Positions 29,835 through 33,597 are shown, numbered from the stretch's first letter. The stretch: DNA of 64,000 bases from Clostridia bacterium (GCA_024404025.1 JAKSQP010000001.1:1-64000); one strand, 5' to 3'. Translations and numbers: made by a program. Notes: generated by a model from the letters alone, not told the origin.

Positions 29835-30782
29835 ATGAAAAAAATCATTTCTGTTCTGATAAGCGCTGTTATGGTGCTGAGCCTTTTTGCAGCCTGCGGA
29901 AAGGACGATTCAAATAGGATAAAAATAGGACTTGCCGCTCCGAAGGCAACCCACGGCTGGGTTGCGGGCGTTGCCTATTATGCCGAAAAATACTGCAAGG
30001 CAAACGGCATCGAATATATGCTGACCGTTTCGGCAAATAAAACGGAGATGGAAAAAAGCATTGATTCTCTTGTTGAATGGGGCGCTCAGGCGCTCGTTGT
30101 CTGGCCGCAGTGGTCGGGAATGGAAGAAAAAATAGATTCGGTTATCGAAAAGGAAATTCCCGTTGTTGCCTTCGATGTTGACATTCAGAGCGACGGAATA
30201 TGCAAGGTTACGGGCAATAATTACGAGATGGGCTATCAGAGCGCAGAATACATAGTCGGAAAAGTCGGAGAAGCCGCAAGCATAGCGGTGTTGGATGTGC
30301 CTTCGGTCGGCTCTGTTTCGCAGCTGCGAAAGCAGGGATTTTATGATTACCTTAATGAAATCGGATATGACAAATCAAATATTTTCGAGTTTGCCGAAAG
30401 AGCCTTCTCCCGTGACTGCGGATATGAAGATATGAAAAAGCTCCTTGCCGAGCACAAGAAGATAGATGCTGTGTTTTCGCTTGATGACGAAACCTCTATC
30501 GGAGTTATCAAAGCCATTGAAGATGCAGGCAGAACCGACATCAAAGCCATCACCGGCGGAGGCGGAATGCAGGAATATTTCGGAATGATAGCAGATAAGA
30601 AATATTCATATCTCGGCCTCGCATCCGTTCTTTACAGCCCCTCAATGATTGAAAATGCAATTGAGGTCGCATCCGAAATCGCAAGAGGCAACAGCGCTGC
30701 GAAAATGGTTATAATTCCGACCGGCATCGTATCGGCCGAAAATGTTTCAAAATATATCGATAACGGAAACAAAGTTTATTAA
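29835..30782 (+). CDS. Sugar-binding lipoprotein (RbsB/LacI-type periplasmic-binding fold)
   Basis: The 315-residue protein starts at 29835 behind CGGAGG; the longer frame to 29781 has no site. It has a lipoprotein signal peptide ending LSLFAAC (Cys near residue 19). The mature part has the pattern of type-I periplasmic binding proteins: KIGLAAPKATHGW, ALVVWPQW, VAFDVDIQSDG, ISVFSLDDE-like AVFSLDDETSIG and a C-terminal VIIPTGIVSAENV. These bind pentoses, hexoses or autoinducer-type sugars. No permease or ATPase gene follows; instead the next gene is a multidomain receptor, so it more likely feeds signalling than transport. Confidence 0.85.
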   Translation: MKKIISVLISAVMVLSLFAACGKDDSNRIKIGLAAPKATHGWVAGVAYYAEKYCKANGIEYMLTVSANKTEMEKSIDSLVEWGAQALVVWPQWSGMEEKIDSVIEKEIPVVAFDVDIQSDGICKVTGNNYEMGYQSAEYIVGKVGEAASIAVLDVPSVGSVSQLRKQGFYDYLNEIGYDKSNIFEFAERAFSRDCGYEDMKKLLAEHKKIDAVFSLDDETSIGVIKAIEDAGRTDIKAITGGGGMQEYFGMIADKKYSYLGLASVLYSPSMIENAIEVASEIARGNSAAKMVIIPTGIVSAENVSKYIDNGNKVY

Positions 30783-30798
30783 TTCGGAGGTAGCTTCA

Positions 30799-33597
30799 AT
30801 GACAAATTCATATATTGAGCTTGGATTGATAGCGCTTCTGCCGTCAATCGTTGCGGGATTGATTCAGTTTCTCGCAAGAAAAACCAAAATCGGGGAAATG
30901 AAATATATTCCGAAGCAGGTAATAGCAGGCATAATTTTTGGAATTCTCGCCATAATCGGAACGGAATTCGGAATACCGATGAACGGCGCACAGATCAACT
31001 GCCGTGATGCCGCCGTGCTTACCGCCGGTTTGTTTTTCGGCGCACCCGCCGGAATAATCGCCGGCCTTATCGGAGGCATTGAGCGCTGGATAGCGGTTGC
31101 ATGGGGAGTAGGCACATTCACGAGGGTCGCCTGCACATTTTCAACCATTTTTGCGGGCTTGTATTCGGCGTTTTTGAGAAAATTCATGTTTGATAACAAA
31201 AATCCGGGAACATTGCTTTCTCTCGCAATCGGTGTTGTTATGGAGGTTATCCACATGACCTCTGTGTTCCTGACCAATATGGATACCCCAACCGAAGCGA
31301 TGGCGGTTGTTAAGAGCTGCTCGATTCCGATGATTTCGGCAAACGGAATAGCCGTTATGTTTTCGGCGATTTCAATCCTGCTTGCCCTTGGCAAAACTCC
31401 GTTTCAGAGAAAACACAAAGCCCGTGTTTCGCAGACGATTCAGAAAGGACTTCTTATTGCCGTTGCTTTTGCCTTTGCGGCAACAACATCTTTTATCTTT
31501 ATTTTTCAGGACACCATTTCAAAAAACGAAGCGGATTCCCTGCTTTCGCTTGCGCTGAACGAAATATCTTCAGACATTACCGATGCTTCGGATGTGAATC
31601 TTCTCCGTGTTGCAAAGTCAGTCAAAAAATCAATCGGCAAAATGAGCCTGACTGAAATAGTTGAGGAATATGGGCTGACTGATGCAAATATCATTGACAG
31701 CAGCGGCGTTGTTATTGACAGCTCCGTGCAGGAAAATATCGGATTTGACCTTAAAACCGGCGAGCAGTCCTCCGCATTTCTCAAGCTGCTTGAAAATGCC
31801 GATGAATGCGTTCAGGATTACGGCCAGATTTCTTCGGATAAATCTCAGTTCAGAAAATATGCCGGAATCAGAACGGAAGACGGCTATATTCAGATAGGCT
31901 ATAATGAATCCGCTCTGCGCAGGGATATTGACAAGCAGGTTGTCGGAATCACCAAAAACCGCCATGTCGGCGAAACGGGATATGTAATCATTCTTGACAG
32001 CGCACTCAATGTTATCAGCGCTCCTGAATCCTTTAAAATCAAGAATCTTTCAAGATCGAATTCGATAATCGAGCTGCCCGGTGAAAACATAACCTTCAGA
32101 ATGAATGTTGACGGAACAGACTGTTTCTGCCGCTATCAGTTTTCGGAAAGCTATTATATTTTCTCGATTCTTCCTTTTTCCGAAGCAACGCAGATGAGAA
32201 ACATTTCTCTTTATACCAACATTTTTATGCAGATTATCGTTTATGCGGCTCTGTTTGCTCTCATTTATTCGATGATCAAAAATGTTGTTGTTAACAGAAT
32301 CAAGCAGATAAATAAATCGCTTGCAAAGATAACGGGAGGAGATCTTGACGAGGTTGTTAATGTCCGCTCAAGCGAAGAATTTGAATCGCTTTCGGATGAC
32401 ATCAATTCAACCGTTGACACTTTGAAGAAATATATTTCCGAGGCATCTGCGAGAATTGATAAGGAGCTTGAATTTGCAAAGAACATCCAGCGCTCTGCTC
32501 TGCCGAGCAACTTTACGGCGGTCAATGCTCATAACGAAATAGAAGTGTTTGCTTCAATGGATCCTGCAAAAGAAGTCGGCGGCGACTTCTATGATTTCTA
32601 TTTTACCGATAAAAACAATTTCCATTTCCTTATTGCCGATGTTTCGGGCAAGGGAATCCCCGCCGCAATGTTTATGATGAGAGCCAAAACCGAGCTTAAG
32701 AGCCTCACCGAGGCGCGGCTTCCGATCGAAGAGGTTTTCACGCAGGGCAACGAAGATCTCTGCGAGGGAAACGAAGCCGGAATGTTTGTTACCGCATGGC
32801 AGGGCAGCATTGATCTTGCAACGGGTCATGTTCGTTTTGCAAATGCCGGCCATAATCCTCCGCTTATCAAGAAAAACGGCAGATTTGAATTCCTTAAGAG
32901 CCGTGCGGGCTTTGTCCTCGCCGGTATGGACGGCGTTAAATATAAGCCGCAGGAATTCTCGCTTGAGCCGGGCGACGAAGTTTATCTTTATACCGACGGC
33001 GTTACGGAAGCAACGAATTCCGAAAATGAGCTTTACGGAGAAGAAAGGCTTCTCAAAGCGCTCAACTCGAGAGATTTTGACACTATCGAAGAGCTTTGCA
33101 AATTTGTTAAATCCGATGTTGATTCCTTCGTCGGCGAGGCTCCGCAGTTTGACGATATAACAATGGTTGCGCTTCGCTATAACGGAATTGCAACAATTCA
33201 GATAGAGAATGCAACGATAGATGATGTTACAAGGGTTACCGAATTTGTTGAGGGCGAGCTTGAGAAGATTGGCTGCCCGATGAAAACGATGATTCAGATC
33301 AACATTGCAATTGATGAAATGTTCAGCAATATCGTTAAATACGGCTATCCCGATGAGCCGGGTCCTGTAACTGTCAGATTCATCGGCGGAGAGCAGTCAA
33401 ATTCCGTTTATATCCGCTTCGAGGATAAGGGCATTCCGTATAATCCGCTGACGAAAGAAGACCCCGATATTACTCTTTCGGCAGACGAAAGAAACATCGG
33501 AGGTCTCGGAATATTCATGGTCAAGAAGACAATGGATGACATCAGGTATAAATATGAAGATGAAAAGAATATTCTGACTATCAAAAAGAACTTATAA
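30799..33597 (+). CDS. Multidomain receptor: LytS-type 5TM, extracellular sensor, HAMP, PP2C (SpoIIE) and HATPase
   Basis: A 932-residue membrane receptor, starting at 30799 (GGAGGT site), 16 bases after the sugar-binding lipoprotein. Residues 1 to about 200 are a 5TM-5TMR_LYT block (GLFFGAPAGIIAGLIGGIER). Two further membrane helices near 230 and 474 enclose an extracellular Cache-like sensor. HAMP follows at about 497-550. The SpoIIE-type PP2C phosphatase runs from about 560 (AKEVGGDFYDFYF, ADVSGKG, FDDITMVAL) to 790, and an RsbW-like HATPase ends the protein (INIAIDEMFSNIVKYGYP; GGLGIFMVKK). Phosphatase plus kinase suggests control of an anti-sigma/anti-anti-sigma switch. No STAS protein or sigma factor lies in the window. 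Confidence 0.9.
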   Translation: MTNSYIELGLIALLPSIVAGLIQFLARKTKIGEMKYIPKQVIAGIIFGILAIIGTEFGIPMNGAQINCRDAAVLTAGLFFGAPAGIIAGLIGGIERWIAVAWGVGTFTRVACTFSTIFAGLYSAFLRKFMFDNKNPGTLLSLAIGVVMEVIHMTSVFLTNMDTPTEAMAVVKSCSIPMISANGIAVMFSAISILLALGKTPFQRKHKARVSQTIQKGLLIAVAFAFAATTSFIFIFQDTISKNEADSLLSLALNEISSDITDASDVNLLRVAKSVKKSIGKMSLTEIVEEYGLTDANIIDSSGVVIDSSVQENIGFDLKTGEQSSAFLKLLENADECVQDYGQISSDKSQFRKYAGIRTEDGYIQIGYNESALRRDIDKQVVGITKNRHVGETGYVIILDSALNVISAPESFKIKNLSRSNSIIELPGENITFRMNVDGTDCFCRYQFSESYYIFSILPFSEATQMRNISLYTNIFMQIIVYAALFALIYSMIKNVVVNRIKQINKSLAKITGGDLDEVVNVRSSEEFESLSDDINSTVDTLKKYISEASARIDKELEFAKNIQRSALPSNFTAVNAHNEIEVFASMDPAKEVGGDFYDFYFTDKNNFHFLIADVSGKGIPAAMFMMRAKTELKSLTEARLPIEEVFTQGNEDLCEGNEAGMFVTAWQGSIDLATGHVRFANAGHNPPLIKKNGRFEFLKSRAGFVLAGMDGVKYKPQEFSLEPGDEVYLYTDGVTEATNSENELYGEERLLKALNSRDFDTIEELCKFVKSDVDSFVGEAPQFDDITMVALRYNGIATIQIENATIDDVTRVTEFVEGELEKIGCPMKTMIQINIAIDEMFSNIVKYGYPDEPGPVTVRFIGGEQSNSVYIRFEDKGIPYNPLTKEDPDITLSADERNIGGLGIFMVKKTMDDIRYKYEDEKNILTIKKNL

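Follow-up and report, generated by a model that had tools for sequence, protein, structure and literature searches.

Histidine kinases and chemoreceptors are known to receive signals from binding proteins, as does, in one case, a serine/threonine kinase route. One of these systems is XylFII–LytS of Clostridium beijerinckii, which senses D-xylose (PDB 5xsj, 5xss and 5xsd). XylFII docks on the periplasmic four-helix module of LytS (PMC9769921). The three structures are also sequence matches of the profile of the solute-binding protein (SBP) described here, and the likeness between the two systems would lie in a Peripla_BP_4-type sugar-binding protein that reports to a membrane receptor. LytS, however, belongs to the histidine kinases and its periplasmic domain is helical, whereas the receptor at the present locus combines a PP2C phosphatase and an RsbW-like kinase with an ectodomain of Cache-like appearance, and it shares the LytS name solely through the family name 5TMR-LYT. 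A second comparison is offered by GlnH–GlnX–PknG of Corynebacterium glutamicum, in which a lipoprotein SBP, a membrane protein and a Ser/Thr phosphorylation output are encoded together (PMC9769921). The same three ingredients would be combined here, but GlnH is an amino-acid SBP, PknG is a separate cytoplasmic kinase, and the system has neither a STAS protein nor an in-chain phosphatase.

On the catalytic side, Rv1364c of Mycobacterium tuberculosis (3ke6) likewise unites an RsbU phosphatase and an RsbW kinase in one polypeptide, although its solved part holds only these two catalytic domains. To our knowledge, Rv1364c has no binding-protein partner. SiaA of the Pseudomonas SiaABCD system (6k4e) and Chlamydia RsbU are also PP2C phosphatases of partner switches, and the periplasmic sensor domain of the latter is proposed to sense alpha-ketoglutarate (PMC11619594); in both, kinase and phosphatase are separate proteins, and the accounts consulted describe neither with a binding protein. 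A literature search found no relevant report that links an SBP to a partner switch or to a phosphatase of the SpoIIE type.

The gene pair and its receptor

The window, by which we mean the whole 64,000-nucleotide stretch of Clostridia bacterium DNA that was analysed, contains a gene for a 315-residue, ribose-type sugar-binding lipoprotein (29,835–30,782, plus strand), followed on the same strand by a gene for a 932-residue receptor (30,799–33,597). The 16-nt gap between them (30,783–30,798) holds the receptor's ribosome-binding site, GGAGG, and the same motif precedes the start of the SBP. An initial annotation, made from the sequence, had described a ribose-type lipoprotein 16 bases ahead of a 932-residue receptor, and the coordinates, the lipobox (LFAAC) and the Pfam match to Peripla_BP_4 (E 6.1e-37; 128 bits against a cut-off of 35.1) all agree with it. 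The AlphaFold model of the SBP (pLDDT 90.6) finds its best solved-structure match in 4joq (Z 33, rmsd 2.0 over 286 residues), and the protein is a Peripla_BP_4, RbsB-type SBP with the type-I SBP fold. The pair is flanked by an alpha/beta hydrolase and by MurD and MurI, the last two named from sequence; no permease or ATPase gene adjoins it among these flanking genes, just as the annotation had noted.

Three of the five domain types that had been assigned to the receptor are over the Pfam cut-off, namely the 5TM-5TMR_LYT region (residues 35–189; 2e-27), the SpoIIE/PP2C phosphatase (605–794; 7.4e-50) and the RsbW-like HATPase_c_2 domain (805–930; 5.2e-22). The remaining two stand less firmly: the HAMP-like segment (497–543) is sub-threshold in Pfam, at 19.6 against 25 bits, and the double-Cache-like region (about 229–465), predicted to be extracellular, comes from a fold model and Foldseek. 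By sequence, no Cache family was found in the receptor, with no dCache match at E 5, and a relative at locus L205 scores 10.3 bits against the dCache_1 cut-off of 45. The AlphaFold model of the receptor is shallow (five sequences), with a pLDDT of 60 overall and about 80 locally in residues 240–465, where it shows the element order expected of a two-lobed Cache fold preceded by a long helix; the ectodomain of this model also matches the ligand-binding domain of Mlp24 at 1e-5 to 1e-6 in Foldseek. On fold prediction, then, the ectodomain would be Cache-like.

The catalytic half of the chain is better defined. The Asp/Gly motifs of the PP2C domain, including the metal-site Asp, are intact, as are the N, G1 and G2 ATP-binding residues of the HATPase domain, and the top Foldseek match of the receptor is 3ke6, the RsbU–RsbW part of Rv1364c. 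The receptor is thus of the partner-switching type by sequence (PP2C plus RsbW-like kinase, RsbU/RsbW type), and the earlier proposal that one chain carries both kinase and phosphatase domains is upheld by these motifs, the activities themselves being predicted. The best NCBIfam match is to the SiaA equivalog NF038263 (73.9 bits, 9.9e-21; cut-off 700 bits); orthology with SiaA or SpoIIE was rejected, since the scores fall far below cut-off and the genome encodes its own SpoIIE on contig C29.

Origin and co-inheritance of the binding protein

The source family of the SBP is the CUT2 (RbsB–RbsA–RbsC) importers of Oscillospiraceae and their relatives, whose SBPs are 44–63% identical to that of the window and sit in complete ABC operons; there they adjoin ATPase and permease genes, both of which are gone from beside the window SBP. 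Within the bacterial family, 21 of 398 genomes encode a protein that matches the SBP with an E-value no higher than 1e-15, and the close SBPs outside the pair-carrying genomes (44–50% identity) lie in complete SBP–ATPase–permease operons. A scan of 84,980 species genomes returned 30 SBP loci, 22 of them linked to an importer, four to a receptor and four to neither, and no relative was found in viral contigs. A phylogeny of 38 SBPs groups the five receptor-linked proteins, that of the window among them, into one clade (support 100/99) that lies within a set of 30 importer-linked sequences. An importer gene set for this SBP, which the initial annotation had held would count against its reading, thus does occur in related genomes outside this clade, but not within it.

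Several of the importer relatives adjoin IolG-, IolE- or sugar-epimerase-like enzymes. These all score below equivalog cut-offs, and we therefore propose only a monosaccharide or a polyol as the ligand. Measured against the 19 nearest importer SBPs, 86 of 126 importer-conserved columns are retained in all five receptor-linked proteins, and sugar binding has therefore probably been kept; a D-to-N change at residue 68 is common to all five. Two further arrangements of such proteins deserve mention in their own right. Three genomes labelled Chloroflexi (L118, L119 and L120) encode a secreted orphan SBP, 62–63% identical to that of the window, with neither importer nor receptor nearby. Elsewhere, at L094:912–4791, a separate SBP–sensor pairing is seen, in which a Peripla_BP_4 protein with 28% identity to the window SBP adjoins a response regulator and a histidine kinase of the HisKA type.

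It is conceivable that the SBP has kept a transport role and docks on a non-cognate ABC permease whose gene lies elsewhere, as its relatives at 44–63% identity are importer subunits and one pair-carrying genome (G025) has a CUT2 ATPase–permease system on its contig C36. The window genome, which is 98.4% complete, argues otherwise. Its four PF02653 permease matches comprise two of a Liv/Urt-type system and two of a nucleoside-type system, each system having its own binding protein, and an RbsC query found no homologue, the best match (1.1e-4) covering part of the nucleoside permease. A role as a CUT2 importer subunit was rejected for the window SBP because the CUT2 permease is absent from this genome. 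Another pair carrier, G332, has the same Liv/Urt- and nucleoside-type PF02653 complement and no CUT2-type permease was found in it. We consider a continued role in transport very improbable.

The SBP–receptor pair was found in five genomes of at least two genera, all of them draft or metagenome assemblies, with order and strand unchanged and a spacing of 12–17 nt (16 nt in the window); locus L115 was provisionally equated with that of G025, and L141 with that of G332. Such conservation is more than chance would give. The receptor family itself is broad and common in Clostridia, as seen among 99 relatives and then in 391 genomes of the class, and an SBP accompanies the receptor at five of 35 non-redundant loci (L037 and L115, on the same contig, being counted once). 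The five SBP-linked receptors form one clade (100/99), and the receptor and SBP trees branch identically: ((L123, L141), (L116, (window, L115))). Because both partners form one clade with matching topology, the simplest history is that an SBP of the CUT2 importer family was recruited once to an existing receptor and then inherited jointly with it. By its gene linkage, adjacent, co-inherited and with no importer gene alongside, the pair qualifies as a putative SBP-activated receptor of the XylFII–LytS type.

The survey of adjacency that had been suggested as a check is therefore answered by the five genomes and their congruent trees. The same annotation had also held that a receptor usually occurring without the SBP would speak against the pairing; this is the case across the family, but not within the clade, and a pair as the general form of the receptor was rejected. 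Since importer homologues exist and the receptor usually lacks an SBP, the pairing is best read as a clade-specific addition, and not as the receptor's general mode.

These numbers also bear on whether the receptor needs its neighbour at all. The family mostly operates without an SBP, so the receptor's own Cache-like region may sense; the Cache-like or 5TMR region could then detect the signal directly, with the SBP unlinked or redundant, for example as a scavenger or as a trace of a lost importer. The 30 of 35 receptor loci that lack an SBP are consistent with this, as are the close homologues at L118–L120 and L140, orphans with neither importer nor receptor. Yet order, strand and spacing have been kept in the pair although the STAS and HD genes discussed below are dispersed in some members of the clade, and the SBP retains most importer-conserved residues, where a remnant would be expected to decay or separate. 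Sensing by the receptor on its own thus seems rather unlikely, if clearly less so than transport.

STAS partners and candidate outputs

A STAS gene lies within 3 kb of the receptor at 26 of the 35 non-redundant loci. The fullest arrangement is that of L123, where SBP, receptor, a RelA-type HD hydrolase, a STAS–APH kinase fusion and a STAS protein are encoded in one run; L141 has SBP, receptor, HD and STAS in one run, and L046 and L048 have receptor, HD, STAS–APH and STAS with no SBP. No STAS gene adjoins the pair in the window. The search for STAS proteins in its own genome, which had been recommended, located a 98-residue STAS protein on contig C29 (about 71,667–71,963) and a STAS–APH gene together with an HD gene on C14, and the STAS–APH protein shares 61% identity with its L123 counterpart. 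All STAS partners examined have the serine that aligns with the phosphorylated site of SpoIIAA, a site established for SpoIIAA and RsbV. The HD protein finds matches in HD_4 and in the N-terminal portion of RelA/SpoT models, and the APH part of the fusion comes nearest to TIGR02172, below cut-off. Within the genus, 28 genomes have the receptor family and 20 of these also encode STAS–APH, versus three of the 17 genomes in which the receptor family is lacking (Fisher 7e-4, uncorrected for kinship or incomplete genomes).

Several neighbouring arrangements were observed along the way. The RelA/SpoT-type HD and STAS–APH genes recur as a pair beside the receptor family in Clostridia (L060:4614–6376, L046, L048, L123, L209 and L211). 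In several bacterial families of the class, the receptor family has as its companion a conserved protein of about 204 residues, often beginning MKTDVC (L207:3921–4535, L208, L210 and L212–L218), and the one such protein searched gave no Pfam match. At L041 and L043 (genomes G039 and G036), a PP2C–HATPase receptor with no 5TMR and a STAS gene sit beside an alkyl-sulfatase-like lipoprotein that has a metallo-beta-lactamase domain. Finally, on C29 of the window genome (minus strand, about 153,270–156,960; L058:2358–5957), a STAS gene is followed by genes for an SDF (sodium:dicarboxylate) symporter, a fusion of SBP_bac_3 with BPD_transp_1, and an ABC ATPase, and the symporter has an N-terminal extension of roughly 130 residues that looks HATPase-like by eye. 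As a set of this kind lies beside STAS and the receptor family at L205, a partner switch may in such sets act directly on a transporter.

The partner-switching pathway foreseen by the initial annotation thus stands in part. The STAS genes beside 26 of 35 relatives and the intact motifs support the switch, while an anti-sigma/sigma output would be one possibility among others; the one RsbW-like protein found next to a sigma factor in this genome is SpoIIAB, which belongs to sporulation. The HATPase_c_2 proteins that exceed the threshold in the window genome are the receptor, SpoIIAB in the spoIIAA–spoIIAB–sigF operon on C12, and a protein at C8:41,664. A survey for sigma factors that was not systematic found neither a dedicated RsbW/sigma pair nor an rsbV–rsbW–sigB-like operon in this genome. 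The C8 protein is not favoured as a dedicated anti-sigma factor, as it sits in an iron-sulfur/NADH-dehydrogenase-like cluster.

The output could nonetheless be a conventional sigma factor, reached by the same receptor mechanism through SpoIIAB and sigma-F or an unrecognized RsbW-like protein, and this variant, which differs in output only, is possible though doubtful. The phosphatase, kinase and STAS set is that of sigma-B/sigma-F control, and both the sigF operon and the C8 protein are at hand; against it stand the setting of the C8 gene, the missing sigB-like operon, and the genes that recur beside members of the receptor family, which encode STAS, STAS–APH and the HD hydrolase. With no dedicated RsbW/sigma pair found, the last two become output candidates, and the output may be the STAS–APH kinase or the HD hydrolase, not necessarily a sigma factor. 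In its specific form, in which an SBP-gated receptor would control both a STAS–APH (TIGR02172/aminoglycoside-phosphotransferase-like) kinase and a RelA/SpoT-type HD hydrolase, this proposal is equally tentative.

A possible route from extracellular sugar to STAS proteins

Taken as a whole, the reading that we favour, with reasonable but far from complete confidence, is that an importer SBP was recruited as the ligand-sensing subunit of a pre-existing membrane partner-switching receptor, through which its ligand governs STAS phosphorylation. The recruitment would have taken place once, in the ancestor of a small clostridial group. By analogy with XylFII–LytS and GlnH–GlnX–PknG, the liganded SBP would most likely dock from outside on the extracellular part of the receptor, either its Cache-like region or the 5TMR. 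The signal would then travel through the HAMP-like linker and alter how the PP2C phosphatase and the RsbW-like kinase of the same chain are balanced, and this balance would set the phosphorylation of STAS proteins encoded elsewhere, namely the 98-residue protein on C29 and the STAS–APH protein on C14. In this way an outside sugar would probably control intracellular protein switches with no need of import. We infer the SBP–receptor contact, the ligand, the direction of the signal, the choice of STAS substrate and the output.

Several observations weigh against the recruited-subunit reading. The pair is known from only five genomes, each of them a draft or metagenome assembly; most receptors lack an SBP and may sense with their own Cache-like region; the window has no adjacent STAS gene; and G025 does have its CUT2 transporter. 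Only seven ectodomain residues set the SBP-linked clade apart, being invariant within it and found in no other receptor compared, and a docking signature was rejected as unconvincing on that count. At L116, moreover, the HATPase is not part of the receptor chain and is encoded by a separate, convergent gene.

A single recruitment, the importer relatives, the disappearance of the importer and, at L123, five genes kept together in a relative would make the whole of an evolutionary step visible here. How nutrient sensing is passed to STAS switches in uncultured gut clostridia is a question that the pair opens to testing with a few purified proteins, and the wider receptor family points to a little-studied STAS–APH/HD module that is common in Clostridia. 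Were the output indeed not a sigma factor, an extracellular sugar would directly govern a small-molecule kinase and perhaps an alarmone pathway as well.
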